Source of the DNA: Gordonia sp. (in: high G+C Gram-positive bacteria)
GTDB lineage: Bacteria > Actinomycetota > Actinomycetes > Mycobacteriales > Mycobacteriaceae
Length of the DNA: 63,944 nucleotides
Reading direction: 5' to 3'
NCBI RefSeq assembly: GCF_020438995.1
Contig: NZ_JAGQTN010000002.1
Location: 1 to 63,944, forward strand
The position numbers and the translations under genes were made by a program. Shown here in pieces: positions 4,658 to 20,489 of this stretch (within the stretch, counting starts at the first letter, position 1; each line of letters begins with the position of its first letter). Below the pieces are notes generated by a model, which searched no databases, was not told the origin of the DNA, and worked only from the letters and a program-made list of their open reading frames with translations.

Positions 4658-5203
4658 TCAGCCAAGACCGAGGTCACTGAGCCCGAGCAGCGACCGGTAC
4701 GGCACACCGAGCTCCCCGATCACCGCGTCGGCGCCGGTGGCCCGGTCGACGACGGTCGCCACGCCCACCACTATCGCCCCCACCTCGCGGGCCGCACGCA
4801 CCGCTTCGGACGGCGACGCACCGGTGGTGGAGGTGTCCTCGACGATCAGTACCCGGCGGCCGTCGATGTCGGGGCCTTCGATGCGCCGCTGCATGCCGTG
4901 CGCCTTCGCGGCCTTACGCACGACGAACGCGTCGATGGGGCGGCCGTCCGCGTGCATGATCGACGTCGCGACCGGGTCTGCGCCCAGGGTCAGGCCACCG
5001 ACGGCGTCGTAGTCCCAGTCATCGGTGAGCTGCCGCATAAGCGACCCGATCAGCGGTGACGCCTCGTGGTGCAGAGTCGCCCGGCGCAGATCGACGTAAT
5101 AGTCGGCTTCCTTGCCGGACGACAGGGTCACCCGGCCGTGGACGACGGCCAGTTCGGTGACGAGCCGGGCCAGCCGTTCACGTTTGGCTGCATCGAGACT
5201 CAT
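4658..5203 (-). CDS. pyrE: Orotate phosphoribosyltransferase
   Basis: It transfers orotate to PRPP to form OMP in de novo pyrimidine synthesis. The 181-residue product has the type I PRTase signature VLIVEDTSTTGASPSEAVRAA (PRPP loop). It also has DYYVDLRRATL near the N-terminus and KAAKAHGMQRRIEG in the flexible catalytic loop. The start is the ATG at 5203. It follows an Rv0383c-like gene with an 8-bp gap, so the two are probably co-transcribed, as in Mtb Rv0382c-Rv0383c. Confidence 0.95.
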   Translation of the reverse strand: MSLDAAKRERLARLVTELAVVHGRVTLSSGKEADYYVDLRRATLHHEASPLIGSLMRQLTDDWDYDAVGGLTLGADPVATSIMHADGRPIDAFVVRKAAKAHGMQRRIEGPDIDGRRVLIVEDTSTTGASPSEAVRAAREVGAIVVGVATVVDRATGADAVIGELGVPYRSLLGLSDLGLG

Positions 5204-14408: not shown

Positions 14409-14425
14409 TTCGCTTCTGCCTTTCT

Positions 14426-14446
14426 CTTTAGTCCAACAGACTCAAG
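14426..14446. promoter_or_regulatory. HAIR motif 1 (HspR operator), clpB
   Basis: CTTTAGT, then 7 bases, then ACTCAAG: one mismatch from the consensus CTTGAGT-N7-ACTCAAG bound by HspR. It lies 17 bp upstream of the clpB start codon, downstream of the predicted transcription start, so binding would block elongation or initiation. Confidence 0.75.
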
Positions 14447-14466
14447 TATGAGCCTACAGAGTCGAC

Positions 14467-14492
14467 AACACCAACAGACTTGAGCGTATTCC
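14467..14492 (-). promoter_or_regulatory. SigH/SigE-like promoter of clpB
   Basis: On the minus strand, GGAATA (14492-14487) is followed after 17 bases by GTTGTC. This fits the SigH consensus GGAAYA-N16/17-GTT. It overlaps HAIR motif 2. Confidence 0.6.
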
Positions 14493-14499
14493 ACTCAAC
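14479..14499. promoter_or_regulatory. HAIR motif 2 (HspR operator), clpB
   Basis: CTTGAGC, then 7 bases, then ACTCAAC: two terminal mismatches from the HspR consensus. It overlaps the -35 of the SigH-like promoter, so HspR could exclude the polymerase. Confidence 0.75.
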
Positions 14500-14518
14500 T
14501 CATGATTCGGCACTTAAC

Positions 14519-14607
14519 CTTCAACGAACCGTCTGCTCATTGAAGTTTGACCTATAAACTTCAATGATCCGCCTGACGATTCACAGAAAGGTCACAACCT
14601 TCAACGA
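14519..14607 (+). promoter_or_regulatory. Operator array upstream of fic
   Basis: CTTCAA(C/T)GA occurs at 14519, 14559 and 14599, exactly 40 bp apart. An inverted copy at 14537 forms a perfect 12-bp inverted repeat with the middle one (14537-14548 and 14556-14567, 7-bp spacer). The last copy touches the fic start codon. The arrangement suggests a cooperative, probably autoregulated, operator. Confidence 0.65.
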
Positions 14608-15905
14608 TGGCCGAACTCATCCACCGGCACTGGCAACCCGCTGACCAGTCAGGCCTGGTCGCGGCAGACCGTCGTGGTGGCCGATACTCGGCGTACGTCC
14701 CCGACATGCTGTGCGGACGCCCACTGGCCCTCGATGGCGCCCTCGGAGCATCAGCTGCCGCCGCCGAACGGGCAATCCGGGGCCTCTCCGTGCTCCCCGG
14801 CTCACGTGGCCTGGCGGCGATCTCCCGGCTCCTCACCCGTTCGGAGGCCATCTCCAGTTCGATGATCGAAGGCATCGCACCGTCGCCGCAGCAGGTGGCG
14901 CTCGCCGAACTGGGCCTGACCGAGAAGGTCCGGGGTCTCAGCGACAAGGCGAAACTGGTCGCAAACAACATCGCCGTCCTGCGCACAGCGTCCGGTGAAC
15001 TCGTGAGCTCACCAACCATCACGATCACCGACATCGAGGCGCTGCACGATGGTCTGCTGCCGGACGACCGGCATCGAGGAATCCGCACGGTCCAGAACTG
15101 GATCGGAGGTTCGAATTGGAATCCACTGAGCGCGCAGTTTGTTCCGCCACCACCGGAGATGGTCCCCACCCTGGTCGATGATCTCGTCCGGTACATGAAC
15201 GGCGCCTCGCACGGGCCACTCATCCAGGCGGGCCTGGCTCACGCGCAGTTCGAGACGATCCACCCGTTCACCGATGGGAACGGACGAGTCGGCAGGGCCC
15301 TGATTCACACGGTCCTGGCGCGTGGCGGGCTATCGCCCGACGCCGTCCTGCCCGTCAGCCTCGTGCTGGCAACGCTGAGTGACCGATACGTCGAAGGCCT
15401 GAACAGCTACCGATACATTGGACCCGCAGACCGAGCCGAGGCGGGTAACGGACAAACGGCGTGGCTGACGTTTTTCGTCGAAGCGGCATCCATCACCATC
15501 GACCAGGCCGCACAGCTCGCGGCCGATGTCTCGGCACTGGAAACCGCATGGCATCACAAGGTCCACCAGAACAGAGCTGAGCGCGGACTGCGGACGACTC
15601 TGCGCGCCAACTCGGCAGCGCAACGCATGTTGTCGCTCCTCCCGGAAGCACCCGTGCTCACTGCACGCTCAGCCGAACGACTGATCGACGCCTCCTTCAA
15701 CACCGCCCGCAACGCACTCGAAGAACTCGCGGACGCAGGAGTACTCACTCGCAAGGTCATCGAACGCGGAACCACCGGCTACCTGGCCCACGACATCCTC
15801 GATCTCGTCGGCATCACCGAACGCCGTCTCGCGAGCACCCAGTTCGACACCCGCACCTCACCACCGTCCCGACCGGCTCCCGCGCGACCACCGACACGGG
15901 AATAG
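14607..15905 (+). CDS. Fic-domain AMP transferase with C-terminal winged helix
   Basis: Fic proteins transfer AMP or a related group to Ser, Thr or Tyr of target proteins. The catalytic motif HPFTDGNGRVGR starts at His219. An inhibitory helix motif SSMIEG (Ser84...Glu88-Gly89) lies N-terminal, which marks a class II, self-inhibited Fic protein. Residues from about 330 to 410 look like a winged-helix domain (ARNALEELADAGVLTRKVIE), suggesting that it binds its own operator array. The product is 432 residues; ATG 14607 is the first start. It is divergent from clpB across 198 bp. No separate antitoxin gene is seen. Confidence 0.92.
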   Translation: MAELIHRHWQPADQSGLVAADRRGGRYSAYVPDMLCGRPLALDGALGASAAAAERAIRGLSVLPGSRGLAAISRLLTRSEAISSSMIEGIAPSPQQVALAELGLTEKVRGLSDKAKLVANNIAVLRTASGELVSSPTITITDIEALHDGLLPDDRHRGIRTVQNWIGGSNWNPLSAQFVPPPPEMVPTLVDDLVRYMNGASHGPLIQAGLAHAQFETIHPFTDGNGRVGRALIHTVLARGGLSPDAVLPVSLVLATLSDRYVEGLNSYRYIGPADRAEAGNGQTAWLTFFVEAASITIDQAAQLAADVSALETAWHHKVHQNRAERGLRTTLRANSAAQRMLSLLPEAPVLTARSAERLIDASFNTARNALEELADAGVLTRKVIERGTTGYLAHDILDLVGITERRLASTQFDTRTSPPSRPAPARPPTRE

Positions 15906-16178
15906 GCAAGCCGCCATCAGAGTGTGTGGGCGCCATGGGCCTTTGTGCAGCGGGCGGGTCCCAGACCGCTGGTTCAGGTGGATCGGTCGATGGGGAACTG
16001 CCTGAGCGTCACAGGTAATCGTGCACAGTGATGGGTGGGGCTCGCGGCGTGACCGGCAGCCCCTGACTTGTCTGAATCAGGACTCAACAAGCGCTCGATC
16101 CTACGGACGACCAGAACTCCACCCAACCAAGGCCCGGACTACCCGGACTGGAGTTTTCGGCCCCGCGCACTGACGTGC
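15906..16178. other. Non-coding stretch after fic
   Basis: About 270 bp downstream of fic have no supported gene. I see no tRNA fold, and the open frames are short. It may mark the edge of a transferred segment, since the following HEPN gene has less GC-biased codons. Confidence 0.4.
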
Positions 16179-16184
16179 TATAGT
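16179..16184 (+). promoter_or_regulatory. Candidate -10 element of the small RNA
   Basis: TATAGT lies immediately before the hairpin-rich segment. The -35 region is weak (TTTTCGG at about 16154-16160). Transcription would begin near 16190. Confidence 0.5.
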
Positions 16185-16189
16185 GGCTG

Positions 16190-16270
16190 AGTCCGAGTGA
16201 ACGGACATAGAACTTAAACAAGGGTAGTAACCCTCAAGGGGCGCGGCTTCGGTCGCGCCCCTTCTTTTTT
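16190..16270 (+). ncRNA. Putative structured small RNA or attenuator leader upstream of HEPN gene
   Basis: The segment folds as three consecutive hairpins. The first is GTCCG/CGGAC (16191-16206), the second AGGGT/ACCCT (16221-16234), and the third a 10-bp GC-rich stem (16236-16245 with 16254-16263) followed by CTTTTTT. It is preceded by a TATAGT box and ends 22 bp before the HEPN start codon. It could be an independent RNA of about 80 nt, an attenuator, or an RNA partner of the HEPN protein. Confidence 0.5.
16236..16270 (+). terminator. Intrinsic terminator
   Basis: A perfect 10-bp stem AAGGGGCGCG/CGCGCCCCTT with an 8-nt loop is followed directly by C and six T. It is the only canonical T-tract terminator I find in the window. 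Confidence 0.85.
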
Positions 16271-16292
16271 CCACGACTCAGGGGGATAGTCG

Positions 16293-17933
16293 TTGAGCAG
16301 CCCAGGTACTGATCCTGCTTCAGCGTACAGTCGGCACGTCAATGCCAGATTCCGGGACTTCACCAACCCGAGAACTCCCTGGTCACGACGGTTGTGGGAT
16401 GTGGGTACATTCCTGACACTTGAAGAACTTCATGAAGTCGGACAATGGCTTGACCGGCAGGTACTCAGCCCCTCTGCCGTTAACTGGTTGCAACGTAGCC
16501 TAGAGGCGCGGCTTGGCCAGGACGCGGCGTTCGGCTCCAAAGAGCTCCGACAGCAGCTGACCCAGTGTCTCCGGTCAGACCTCACCGTCCGGTCTGATGG
16601 TCGGCGCCGCCTACGTCATGTCATCGACGTCGCGCGGCCCGGATATCTCGACCGGTGGGCAGCGCAGGTCGCCCTTGACGAGCCTCCCGGTGCTGAACGT
16701 GCGGCTCGCGCAACTGCGGCCCATCTCCTCGATTCCGGCCACAGTCTCGTGGGCCTACGACGCTGGTTGGGCGAGCACTCACAGTGCTCCGCCGTCGACT
16801 TGCTCGTACAAGCTGCCGAACTCGCGGACAAAGGTCCCCGCATGTTCAGTATCTGGGTACGAGTGAACGATCTTCCAGAAATCGTCCGCTTGGCAGATCC
16901 CCTGCCCCACTTCACACGTCACGCTAGTCTACCGGGTCCGATCGCCGACAAGTTGAGAAGTCTCGATTCCATACCGGCGCTCGGCGCATTCAACTACACC
17001 GTGGAGGCCCGCGATGCTGAGCGCGCCGTCGAGTTGGTTTCCGAGGTTATCGAGCGGATGCGTGCCCGAGCGCGGTTTGCTCATTCGAACCGTCACATCG
17101 TGTTTAGTAGCGAGGTGTATGTCGAGACAGAAGATCGCTTCATTGAGCTACGCGTTCCCGACCGCAATGCCGCAATCATGTCTCTGGTGACCGAAGGGCA
17201 GTTGCTCGATGTCATCCCCGCGAAAACCTATGCGGCAGAACGGCATGCCATCGATGACGCGCTGGAACTGGCGGCACCACTCAACTCAGGAGGGCTGGCT
17301 CCCGCGATCTCAGGTGCGTGGGCAGCGCTGGAGGCGTTGTTGACCGACTCTCAGGACAGCGACAAGAAGGAGGGCAAAGTCGGCGCTGCCACTCACGCGG
17401 CCCGGTTGGTCGCATGTTCGTGGCCAAGAGCTGAACTGACCGCCCTGTCGTACCGAATCGACCCAGAAAGGGGAACCGGCCGCGAGTTGTCCGCGCGTCT
17501 TGATGTCGCGGAGACGAATCGGGATAGATCCCAGATCATCGCCGACCAGTTGCGTAACACTGGACAGATCCCACTGCTCCGAACTTGGCGACTACCCAGC
17601 GACGCGGCCGCCGTAACCCGAATGAACCGACTTCTCGCGAATCCCACAGGAATGCTCACCCAGGTCAGCGACTACGTGGAGGGATCACTGCGTCGTATGT
17701 ACCGGTGTCGCAACGTCATCGTCCACGGAGGATCAACTCGGGGAGACGTCTTGGACTCGACGCTTCGAGTGGTTGCTCCGCTGGTCGGGGCGACGCTCGA
17801 CCGCATCACACATGCTCATATCGTTCTCGGCATCGAACCGCTCGAACTGGCCACCAGAGCGGATGCGGCCGTAGCTTTGGCGTCAGATCACTCCATGGGT
17901 CCTCACATAGTCGATCTGCTTGGGAGGCGATGA
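16293..17933 (+). CDS. HEPN-domain protein, possible RNase/abortive-infection effector
   Basis: The product is 546 residues with no obvious family over most of its length. Near the C-terminus the sequence RRMYRCRNVIVHGG contains Arg473-Asn-x3-His478, the Rx4H motif of HEPN ribonucleases, with the usual polar residue after Arg. A preceding helical segment (YVEGSLRRMY) fits the HEPN helix. The layout, a long N-terminal region and a C-terminal HEPN, resembles ApeA-type anti-phage proteins, but homology cannot be shown here. The start is a TTG at 16293, supported by AGGGGG seven bases upstream. Its codons look less GC-biased than those of neighbours, suggesting transfer. A three-hairpin RNA with a terminator lies directly upstream. 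Confidence 0.75.
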   Translation: MSSPGTDPASAYSRHVNARFRDFTNPRTPWSRRLWDVGTFLTLEELHEVGQWLDRQVLSPSAVNWLQRSLEARLGQDAAFGSKELRQQLTQCLRSDLTVRSDGRRRLRHVIDVARPGYLDRWAAQVALDEPPGAERAARATAAHLLDSGHSLVGLRRWLGEHSQCSAVDLLVQAAELADKGPRMFSIWVRVNDLPEIVRLADPLPHFTRHASLPGPIADKLRSLDSIPALGAFNYTVEARDAERAVELVSEVIERMRARARFAHSNRHIVFSSEVYVETEDRFIELRVPDRNAAIMSLVTEGQLLDVIPAKTYAAERHAIDDALELAAPLNSGGLAPAISGAWAALEALLTDSQDSDKKEGKVGAATHAARLVACSWPRAELTALSYRIDPERGTGRELSARLDVAETNRDRSQIIADQLRNTGQIPLLRTWRLPSDAAAVTRMNRLLANPTGMLTQVSDYVEGSLRRMYRCRNVIVHGGSTRGDVLDSTLRVVAPLVGATLDRITHAHIVLGIEPLELATRADAAVALASDHSMGPHIVDLLGRR

Positions 17934-18419: not shown

Positions 18420-19178
18420 CTACAACTCCTTCTCCGCGAACGCCACCATCGCGTCGCGGACGAACGCCGCGAACTCCCGGCCGTCGACCGAGTAGGTCTT
18501 GCCGAACCGCGGGTCGTCGACGTACATCTGGCCCAGACCCGTGAACGCCTCGGCCGACGGGGCCGTGCCGCCCCAACTCGCCCGAATCCATTCGTACTGC
18601 CGCCGGGCCAGCGCCTGCACCTCACTACCGTGGACATCGAGCCCGCGCGCCGAAGCATCGGCGAAACCCTTGATCAGCGAGGATGATTCGTCCTCGAAAG
18701 CCTTCCGGCCGGCGCCGTCGAGCGACCGCCACCAGGTGTCGGAAGCGGTATAGGCCTCCTCGCCCCACCGATCCACAACCTCGTCCTTGTACTGCGTGTG
18801 GTCGAATCCGTTGAACATCGTGTCAGCCACGAGCTGTTCCCCTTTCTCCAGTGCTTTGATGGTTGACCGCACCGATTCAACGACAGCCGCGAGCCGGGCA
18901 CGCTCGGATTCGAGCTTCTCGACATGAGCACGCAACGCCTCGACGGCGTCGACACCCGCGTCGAGTACGTCCCCGATCTCGCGGAGCCCAACTCCCAACT
19001 CCCGCAACACAAGAATGCGTTGCAGGCGCACCAGTGCATCCTCGTCGTAGAGCCGCACCCCACCGGCGCCGGTTCCCGTCGGAAGCAGTATCCCGACCTG
19101 CTCGTAGTGACGCAGCGTCCGGCTCGTCACGCCCGACGACCGCACGACCTCCTGGATCGTCCACTGCTCGCCGGTCAT
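18420..19178 (-). CDS. MerR-family regulator with TipAS ligand-binding domain
   Basis: The N-terminal winged helix is MerR type (WTIQEVVRSSGVTSRTLRHYEQVGILLP...GGVRLYDEDALVRLQRI). A coiled coil (residues about 85-115) and a C-terminal TipAS domain follow (about 120-250: YKDEVVDRWGEEAYTASDTWW). TipA-type proteins sense thiopeptide or other antibiotics and activate their own gene or a resistance gene. I chose the ATG at 19178, with AAGGGCGG upstream, over ATG 19196. It is divergent from the CynX-type transporter, which may be its target. Confidence 0.92.
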   Translation of the reverse strand: MTGEQWTIQEVVRSSGVTSRTLRHYEQVGILLPTGTGAGGVRLYDEDALVRLQRILVLRELGVGLREIGDVLDAGVDAVEALRAHVEKLESERARLAAVVESVRSTIKALEKGEQLVADTMFNGFDHTQYKDEVVDRWGEEAYTASDTWWRSLDGAGRKAFEDESSSLIKGFADASARGLDVHGSEVQALARRQYEWIRASWGGTAPSAEAFTGLGQMYVDDPRFGKTYSVDGREFAAFVRDAMVAFAEKEL

Positions 19179-19231
19179 GTCGCCGCCCTTCATCAAGTGT
19201 CATCTCTTCGGTACCTCACTCACCCTGCCGG

Positions 19232-19295: not shown

Positions 19296-20489
19296 ATGCC
19301 GCCGGAGCGTGTTCACGAGTCACCGTCGAGACCGTCGACGGTGTGGATCGTCGTCACGGCCGTCGGCGTCATGCTGGTCGCGGCGAATCTACGGCCCGCG
19401 GTCGTGTCCGTGGCACCGCTGGTCTCCGACATCCGGCATTCGACCGGATTCAGCAGCGGAACCGCCGGCCTGCTGACGACGCTGCCGATCCTGTTCTTCG
19501 GACTCGTCGCCCCGTTCGCGCCGTGGCTCGCGGCCCGATTCGGGTTCGAACGCGCCGTCTTCGGATCGATGGTCGTGCTGATCGCCGGCATCATGCTGCG
19601 CGCGATCCCCGGAACGCCCTGGCTGTTCGCCGGTTCCGCGGTAGTCGGTGCGGCCATCGGTGTATGCAATGTGATTCTGCCCGGTCTCATCAAACGCGAC
19701 TTCTCCCACAGCGCCGGCATGATGACCGGGCTGTATTCGATGACGATGACCGGCGGAGCCGCGGTGGCGGCGGCGTTCACCGTCCCCATCGACGACCGGT
19801 TCGGCGGCGACTGGCGAAAGGCGTTGGCGTCGTGGGTGATTCTGGCGATGGTCGCCGTCGTCGTATGGATACCTCAGCTGCGGCAAACGCATTCGGGTTC
19901 ATACATCCGCCCCGCCCCGCTGTGGGGAAACAAGATCGCCTGGGCCATCACCATTTTCATGGGATCGCAGTCGTTCGTCTTCTACACCTTCGTGGCATGG
20001 ATCCCGACATACCTCACCGATCGTGGCTACGACCGGACCGAGGCCGGCACCGTCCTCGCCGCCGGTCAGTTCGCCGCGATCGTCGGTTCGCTGGTGATAC
20101 CGATCGTCGCCGGCCGATTCGCCGATCAGCGCTGGGCCGGGATCGTCACCGTCTGCAGCAGCGCGGCCGGACTGCTCGGACTGCTCTGCACCGACGTATG
20201 GGCGGCGTTCTGGTGCATGCTCGTGCTGTTCGGCCCCGGCTCGGCGCTCGGCCTGGCCCTGCTGTTCATGGTGCGCCGCAGCAGGTCTGCGGAACAGACC
20301 AACCAGGTGTCGGGGATGGCGCAATGTCTCGGCTATGTACTCGCGGCGGCCGGACCGTTCGGGCTCGGCGTCGTCCACGATGTCACCGGGTCGTGGGCGG
20401 CGGCATTCTCGGTGATCGCGGTGGCCCTGTGCACCCAGACCTGGGGCGGATGGGTGGCCGGACGAAACGTCCATATGACGGCCGAGTGA
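19296..20489 (+). CDS. MFS transporter, CynX/NimT family
   Basis: This is an inner-membrane major-facilitator protein of 397 residues with about 12 hydrophobic segments. The signature AANLRPAVVSVAPLVSDIR near the N-terminus is characteristic of the CynX (cyanate) / NimT (2-nitroimidazole) branch. The substrate is unknown, and no cyanase gene is adjacent. The divergent TipA-type regulator suggests an induced efflux role. It converges with the metallo-beta-lactamase gene with only 12 bp between stops. Confidence 0.9.
   Translation: MPPERVHESPSRPSTVWIVVTAVGVMLVAANLRPAVVSVAPLVSDIRHSTGFSSGTAGLLTTLPILFFGLVAPFAPWLAARFGFERAVFGSMVVLIAGIMLRAIPGTPWLFAGSAVVGAAIGVCNVILPGLIKRDFSHSAGMMTGLYSMTMTGGAAVAAAFTVPIDDRFGGDWRKALASWVILAMVAVVVWIPQLRQTHSGSYIRPAPLWGNKIAWAITIFMGSQSFVFYTFVAWIPTYLTDRGYDRTEAGTVLAAGQFAAIVGSLVIPIVAGRFADQRWAGIVTVCSSAAGLLGLLCTDVWAAFWCMLVLFGPGSALGLALLFMVRRSRSAEQTNQVSGMAQCLGYVLAAAGPFGLGVVHDVTGSWAAAFSVIAVALCTQTWGGWVAGRNVHMTAE

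Follow-up and report, generated by a model that had tools for sequence, protein, structure and literature searches.

A small structured RNA kept beside ApeA-type HEPN nuclease genes, flipped or moved, in many bacteria

Introduction

What does a small, terminator-ended RNA do when it lies directly upstream of a gene for a HEPN nuclease? The question is raised by a locus of Gordonia sp. found in the stretch of 63,944 nucleotides analysed here (contig NZ_JAGQTN010000002.1), hereafter the window. A sequence-only reading of this DNA had described a promoter box, three hairpins and a HEPN gene, and had proposed a transferred defence or toxin locus in which the RNA would act as attenuator, antitoxin RNA or trigger sensor. 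Computational analysis of the window and its relatives addressed the structure of the RNA, its conservation and covariation, its adjacency to apeA and its changes of place, together with the ApeA and HEPN identity of the protein.

Results

Organization of the locus

The elements of the locus all lie on the forward strand of the window, as follows.

16176–16184, + strand: extended -10 promoter element of the RNA, TGC-TATAGT (TGCTATAGT), the TATAGT itself at 16179–16184 (sequence)
16189–16270, + strand: small structured RNA gene, about 80 nt (fold z -3.64, R1 match, covariation over 15 relatives)
16191–16206, + strand: hairpin H1, the least conserved (fold; alignment A2)
16212–16217, + strand: unpaired motif ACTTAA in the H1-H2 linker (alignment A2; type B RNAs)
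16221–16234, + strand: hairpin H2 (fold; alignment A2)
16236–16270, + strand: terminator hairpin H3 (16236–16263) and six T (16265–16270) (terminator scan; alignment A2)
16280–16285, + strand: ribosome-binding site AGGGGG (sequence)
16293–17933, + strand: ApeA-type HEPN nuclease, 546 aa, TTG start (Thr1ApeA homology)
17709–17726, + strand: HEPN active-site motif R473-N-V-I-V-H478 (alignment of 74 homologues)

The TATAGT box and the three hairpins, the last with its T tract, are borne out by sequence and fold, and the AGGGGG and the TTG at 16293, 22 nt past the T run of the terminator, are found as described. The 5' end of the RNA, 16189, is placed from the -10 box. Folding of positions 16179–16290 gives -46.2 kcal/mol, against a mean of -32.6 for shuffled sequences (z -3.64), a value equalled by none of 200 shuffles. 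The RNA is matched by model R1 with 64.9 bits (E 5.8e-16), a score from a model that includes the window sequence. A terminator scan of both strands of the whole window, by criteria of our own, marked five sites; H3 scores 39.0 and the runner-up 23.0, so that to call H3 the only canonical terminator of the window is fair. A TANNNT box occurs at the equivalent place in all 11 codirectional relatives, and is preceded by TGC in three of them (L015, L016, L023).

ApeA homology of the window protein

The protein is, by homology to solved ApeA structures, on which the HEPN assignment is based, a member of the ApeA family and a HEPN nuclease. In a PDB sequence search it matches Thr1ApeA (PDB 9hxl) nearly end to end (residues 12–535 of 9hxl, E 6.8e-84), which supports the ApeA kinship suggested earlier. 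A profile built from 64 homologues matches 9hxl at E 3.5e-189, and Ec2ApeA, in two stretches, at E 1.5e-9. The RNVIVH of the window protein aligns with RNIVLH in Thr1ApeA and RNLIVH in Ec2ApeA. None of the 74 aligned homologues departs from R473, N474 or H478, so the active-site motif read from the letters stands; RN-x3-H recurs in all complete reading frames but that of L089 (86 of 87). The product of one locus, L064, is identical over 531 aa to the solved Thr1ApeA, to which the name ApeA was given by its depositors.

Family libraries are silent on this branch. Searched with the window protein, Pfam, PADLOC and PHROGs offer no family at E <= 1, and NCBIfam gives a single irrelevant match, far below cut-off. 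A search with the 74 homologues lists 16 families at E <= 0.1, and the Pfam family HEPN_Apea (PF18739) is not one of them. Since Thr1ApeA itself sits in the branch, this is read as a gap of the Pfam model rather than as the failure of a defining feature.

The plasmid collection contains homologues in 19 records; others came from three viral contigs and from 10 of 394 genomes of the class. Genome contigs yielded 103 stretches in an alignment-based scan, of which 80 were retained. Scans of genome and viral contigs with the single sequence gave no confirmed relative, whereas alignment-based scans did find some; the phage collection held no match to the window protein. The closest homologues reside in an uncultured Arachnia (74% identity) and a Mycobacterium sp. 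(68%).

Some homologues deserve separate mention. Those of L008, L012 and L013 are labelled 'integrase' in public plasmid records, apparently by misannotation. Microbispora siamensis has two apeA genes, one (L022) with a codirectional RNA of type A, the other (L063) with a divergent RNA of type B. Two contigs classed as viral (L096, L097) also carry ApeA and an RNA of the Burkholderiales type. In Streptomyces loci, L010, L028 and L041 among them, a conserved TANNNT-type box lies on the coding strand about 13 nt before the apeA start, which suggests a leaderless apeA mRNA in these loci.

Transfer and neighbourhood

The codons of apeA had been said to be less GC-biased than those of the flanking genes, and are: the GC3 of apeA, 0.642, is the lowest among the 23 window genes measured (0.744–0.925 in the others). 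In the family sample the window protein finds matches in 2 of 201 genomes, one being the window's own and the other a match of 30% identity, and none in the 14 other genomes of the same genus. In a comparison with six same-genus genomes, DNA similarity running upward from clpB stops at window positions 14410–14501, and both apeA and a Fic gene are missing from the 12–18 kb stretches compared. Transfer of the apeA locus, suggested before on codon usage and layout, is supported by the low GC3 and by the lack of matches in the 14 same-genus genomes.

Between clpB and the RNA sits the Fic-domain gene (14607–15905, + strand; PADLOC SoFic, E 2.6e-68; Pfam Fic, E 4.2e-18), whose GC3, 0.744, is likewise low. 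This gene and apeA may form a small defence island beginning near 14410–14500. On the other side of apeA, positions 18420–19196 (- strand) encode a MerR/TipA-like regulator with a TipAS domain, adjoined by a gene (19296–20489) which by eye looks transporter-like. A MerR/TipA-like regulator near clpB was partially matched in one only (L181) of the six same-genus stretches compared.

RNAs beside apeA in relatives

An RNA adjacent to apeA was assigned at 90 of 95 loci, at 61 by covariance model, at 22 by clade alignment and at 7 by eye; 50 of the 61 RNAs assigned by model are training rows. No RNA was assigned at L014, L044 (where the contig end cuts the locus), L065, L069 and L095. Model R1, trained on 15 rows (12 codirectional and 3 inverted), recovers 15 of 15 and also matches the unseen L029 (E 1.3e-4), at the site of the R2 hit in that locus; its remaining hits over the 95 loci mostly fall on the reverse strand of H3. 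In the same 95 loci, which total 1.06 Mb, model R2 scores 46 hits at E <= 6e-5, no locus having more than one, and all of them lie immediately upstream of apeA on the opposite strand. These comprise 35 training rows, 8 near relatives found earlier by regular expression and kept out of training, and 3 new RNAs (L038, L059, L060). R2 gives 24 additional hits over the 95 loci at E 0.0018–0.83. In four held-out genomes (G249, G326, G350, G464), R1 or R2 hits adjoin apeA or fragments of it. The Thr1ApeA gene, L064, is itself adjoined by a type B RNA, on the minus strand at about 4821–4887, and is one of the training rows.

The association is also visible with a simple hairpin count. A terminator-like hairpin lies within 250 nt upstream of 62 of 93 genes akin to apeA; among the other ORFs of these loci, called mechanically, without annotation, 24 of 345 have one.

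RNAs differ among groups of hosts. Most of the other actinobacterial relatives carry a divergent type B RNA, with a CTWRA-like stretch ahead of the terminator hairpin. The Burkholderiales-type RNA, present at 14 loci, is divergent, measures about 105 nt, and consists of three helices and a terminator. Divergent hairpin RNAs were recognized by eye at five Corallococcus-type loci, at L012 and at L004, where the start codon is uncertain. Five loci (L006, L009, L028, L030, L033) feature, past the divergent RNA, a second long GC-rich hairpin with A- and T-rich flanks, perhaps a bidirectional terminator.

Position and orientation of the RNA

The layout of the window, a codirectional upstream RNA in which H2, linker and H3 recur, is shared by 12 loci in all (the window, L015–L017, L019, L021–L026, L074); the distance from the RNA end to the apeA start codon is about 14–44 nt in the 11 codirectional loci measured. 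Inside the same clade the RNA is inverted in L005, L018 and L020. The commonest layout is upstream and divergent from apeA. At eight Actinoplanes- or Micromonospora-type loci the RNA lies downstream of apeA, convergent with it; it is preceded by a box resembling TATAGT, and its hairpin tip is the same. With filters off, R2 hits five of these eight sites weakly (E 0.003–0.24); other weak hits appear in the same eight loci, among them a hit in L058 (E 0.019) that lies upstream of apeA. In the protein tree, made by a quick method with SH-aLRT support only and a midpoint root, loci with the downstream form fall into a single group that lies inside the divergent ones, and those with the inverted form into a single group within the codirectional clade of the window.

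In the annotated plasmid loci the neighbouring genes and their orientation vary, hence the RNA is not the leader of one divergent neighbour. A leader could not stay functional through the changes of place seen on the tree and a trans-acting RNA could, which favours the latter. The changes of orientation, read from sequence comparison, are the strongest argument that the RNA exceeds a plain terminator, and point to a trans-acting RNA. Its retention beside an ApeA-type enzyme in many bacteria, though flipped or moved, suggests that the RNA controls the enzyme.

Covariation and conserved unpaired residues

Changes on both sides of a pair were observed at 11 of 21 pairs in alignment A2, 8 of 10 in A3 and 16 of 28 in A7. 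In each of the three the covariation score was equalled by none of 500 shuffles, and was above all slid versions. A second statistic, the number of pair types, fails against shuffles: 367 of 500 are as high in A2, and the result is weak in A7 (60 of 500 as high). Within A2, both-side changes involve 2 of 4 pairs of H1, 3 of 5 of H2 and 6 of 12 of H3, with 87.9%, 100% (15 relatives) and 99.4% of cells paired, respectively. Conservation and covariation of the hairpins beside homologous HEPN genes, named beforehand as the thing to look for, were both found.

Covariation of H3 taken by itself is weak proof of a functional RNA, because terminator stems covary for reasons of their own. All 5 pairs of helix 3, an inner helix of the Burkholderiales RNA that lies outside the terminator, show changes on both sides. 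A C.C mismatch is kept in 31 of 35 type B RNAs, and a single mismatch at the same tip position occurs in 7 of 8 downstream RNAs, folded individually. The ACTTAA linker in A2 includes an invariant T column and a neighbouring, nearly invariant C; the window is offset by one base there. A terminator does not account for the Burkholderiales helix 3 or for H2 in the clade of the window, nor for the mismatch that is conserved, the unpaired motif or the presence of promoter boxes. That the type A, type B, downstream and Burkholderiales RNAs share an origin is suggested by their position, the short motif and weak cross-hits.

Specificity of the models and RNAs away from apeA

R1 is weakly specific in GC-rich genomes: it matched 126 of 394 at E <= 0.01, in many through the terminator part only, and R1 scores below 40 bits were disregarded for this reason. 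At 40 bits or above, six places are found among the matches listed, four adjoining apeA and two without it. For R2 the matches at E <= 0.01 came from 13 of the 394 genomes; five places score at least 44 bits, four adjoining apeA or fragments and one without it. At nine weaker R2 places (L117–L125) tblastn found no ApeA in the flank examined. Strong RNA matches adjoining apeA or fragments thus number eight in the class sample, and those without ApeA in the flank examined are L116, L129 (H2 and H3 intact) and L130 (helices disrupted). In L130 the ApeA-less RNA match, at about 1650–1800, adjoins two copies of a CRISPR-like repeat.

Loci of the Pfam HEPN_Apea type provided a contrast set. The family matches 10 of 246 genomes of the class, and the set consists of these 10 actinobacterial loci with about 1.5 kb of flank on either side of the match. 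R1 and R2 have no match at E <= 1 in their 33,696 bases, and a terminator-like hairpin, weak, lies upstream in 1 of 10. A segment of Ec2ApeA found nothing in the plasmid collection.

No Rfam family reaches its gathering score in the window, and permissive searches of 16100–16320 and of five loci gave matches only far under threshold. The abiF RNA family, RF03085, is not listed at E <= 10 in 16100–16320, nor at E <= 1 in L112, L114, L115, L127 and L131.

Discussion

A candidate RNA antitoxin of ApeA

The closest tested precedent is RCd22. According to the passages of PMC12373285 that deal with it, this RNA lies upstream of abiF, is mostly terminated at about 100 nt, and neutralises the HEPN protein AbiF via direct binding, in cis and in trans. 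On this precedent we propose, with moderate confidence, that the RNA binds ApeA directly and restrains its HEPN RNase, as RCd22 does AbiF. Of the three roles suggested for the RNA by the sequence-only reading, antitoxin is thereby the best fit; attenuator is discarded as a common function, since in most loci the RNA is divergent or downstream.

Transcription of the RNA, its binding to the protein, the inhibitory sign, the trigger and the target are here inferred. A short, strongly terminated RNA would be transcribed from its own promoter next to apeA; it would bind the ApeA protein and keep the HEPN RNase inactive, or poised for a phage signal, until infection. ApeA, once freed or activated, would cut cellular RNA, stopping the phage along with the cell. 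In the window, the order is promoter, RNA, terminator, 22 nt, ribosome-binding site and apeA; the gap after the terminator leaves hardly any space for another promoter, so that apeA probably depends on occasional read-through, and the RNA would then outnumber the protein.

Deoxydinucleotides reportedly activate ApeA, to judge from the title of a 2026 preprint. Given such activation, an RNA inhibitor is not required to explain the switching of ApeA. A wider scheme, which we put forward tentatively and hold to be possible, is that the ApeA branch including Thr1ApeA would be a two-part defence, made of an RNA antitoxin able to change place about its gene and a HEPN nuclease also gated by a phage-derived small molecule; RNA control of HEPN toxins would then have arisen a second time, independently of AbiF.

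Other roles for the RNA

RNA partners activate other defence proteins, and the RNA might likewise be a required cofactor or sensor of ApeA, forming a ribonucleoprotein which detects a phage product or positions the target, ApeA being inactive without RNA. Adjacency, covariation, the conserved mismatch and the single-stranded motif fit this role as they fit restraint. The 10 canonical HEPN_Apea loci lack such an RNA by R1 and R2, and the fold seemingly needs none in general; RNA orphans without apeA exist too, though they are harmless under either view. We regard the cofactor role as unlikely.

The role of cis leader, attenuator or riboswitch, with the terminator governing read-through into apeA, suits the window and 11 relatives, where RNA and terminator are codirectional and upstream of apeA, and RCd22 partly acts so, according to the portion of PMC12373285 concerned. 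In most relatives, however, the RNA points away from apeA or sits downstream, so that the function common to all cannot be that of a 5'-leader attenuator, and we rate this role as quite improbable. In the codirectional layout of the window, termination may set the ratio of RNA to apeA.

Short exposed motifs before a terminator hairpin occur in trans-acting small RNAs, and CUUAA is such a motif ahead of the terminator hairpin here. The RNA could accordingly pair as an antisense regulator with the apeA mRNA or another mRNA. Pairing with apeA found no support in duplex energies, which do not clearly differ between cognate and non-cognate combinations (mean ranks of cognate duplexes 6.8 and 7.5 of 15 for type A, 25.8 and 22.8 of 43 for type B), and regulation by base pairing seems very doubtful.

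That the hairpins merely insulate a foreign gene, without functional RNA, is hardly credible: H3 is an ordinary strong terminator and such insulation would be unremarkable, but the conserved mismatch and flanking motif, the -10 boxes before the RNA, its retention after change of place, and structure beyond the terminator (H2; Burkholderiales helices 1–3) all speak against it.

Direct binding and restraint of ApeA by the RNA is thus the explanation that we prefer.

Relation to known systems

The locus is judged an RNA-associated variant of a known defence nuclease, the RNA pairing being the new part and ApeA the known one. Like the anti-phage ApeA systems of solved structure (Thr1ApeA, 9hxl; Ec2ApeA, 9hxb–9hxi), it encodes a single HEPN protein of the size range of about 520–600 residues with the R-N-x3-H motif, and the match to Thr1ApeA is full-length. 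Unlike the 10 HEPN_Apea loci, at which none was matched, the branch of the window has an adjoining structured RNA gene, and it is not matched by the Pfam HEPN_Apea family.

Type III toxin-antitoxin systems feature tandem RNA repeats upstream of the toxin gene, and a ToxN-type nuclease that the RNA neutralises through direct binding; for ApeA such neutralisation is proposed by analogy. The window resembles ToxIN in combining an RNase with an RNA of the same locus, and in having a terminator between RNA and gene. Its nuclease is HEPN and not of ToxN type, and its RNA, as read from sequence and alignment, consists of three unlike hairpins with no repeat unit.

AbiF/RCd22 shares with the window a HEPN protein, an adjacent short terminator-ended RNA and, in the description given in part of PMC12373285, the codirectional order promoter, RNA, terminator, gene. 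The proteins differ, that of the window being ApeA by sequence, AbiF being Abi_2. So do the RNAs, since that of the ApeA side matches neither RF03085 nor, at threshold, any other Rfam family in the stretches searched, and is mostly divergent or downstream in the ApeA branch.

The locus had been said to follow no named system. This does not hold for the protein, which belongs to the named ApeA family; it holds for the pairing, in that no report of an RNA partner of ApeA is found among the literature matches listed. The deoxydinucleotide preprint may contain one. The passages on ApeA consulted in PMC13405049, PMC3710099, PMC7699616 and PMC10952713 make no mention of an RNA partner.

Significance

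If the RNA does control the enzyme, this branch of ApeA may have been studied minus one part, and tests of toxicity, activation or structure done with the protein by itself would have to include the RNA as well. Cas13 has been proposed to descend from the AbiF family. The ApeA branch would be a second HEPN lineage joined with a small RNA, and would offer a comparison case for the origin of RNA-guided HEPN effectors such as Cas13.
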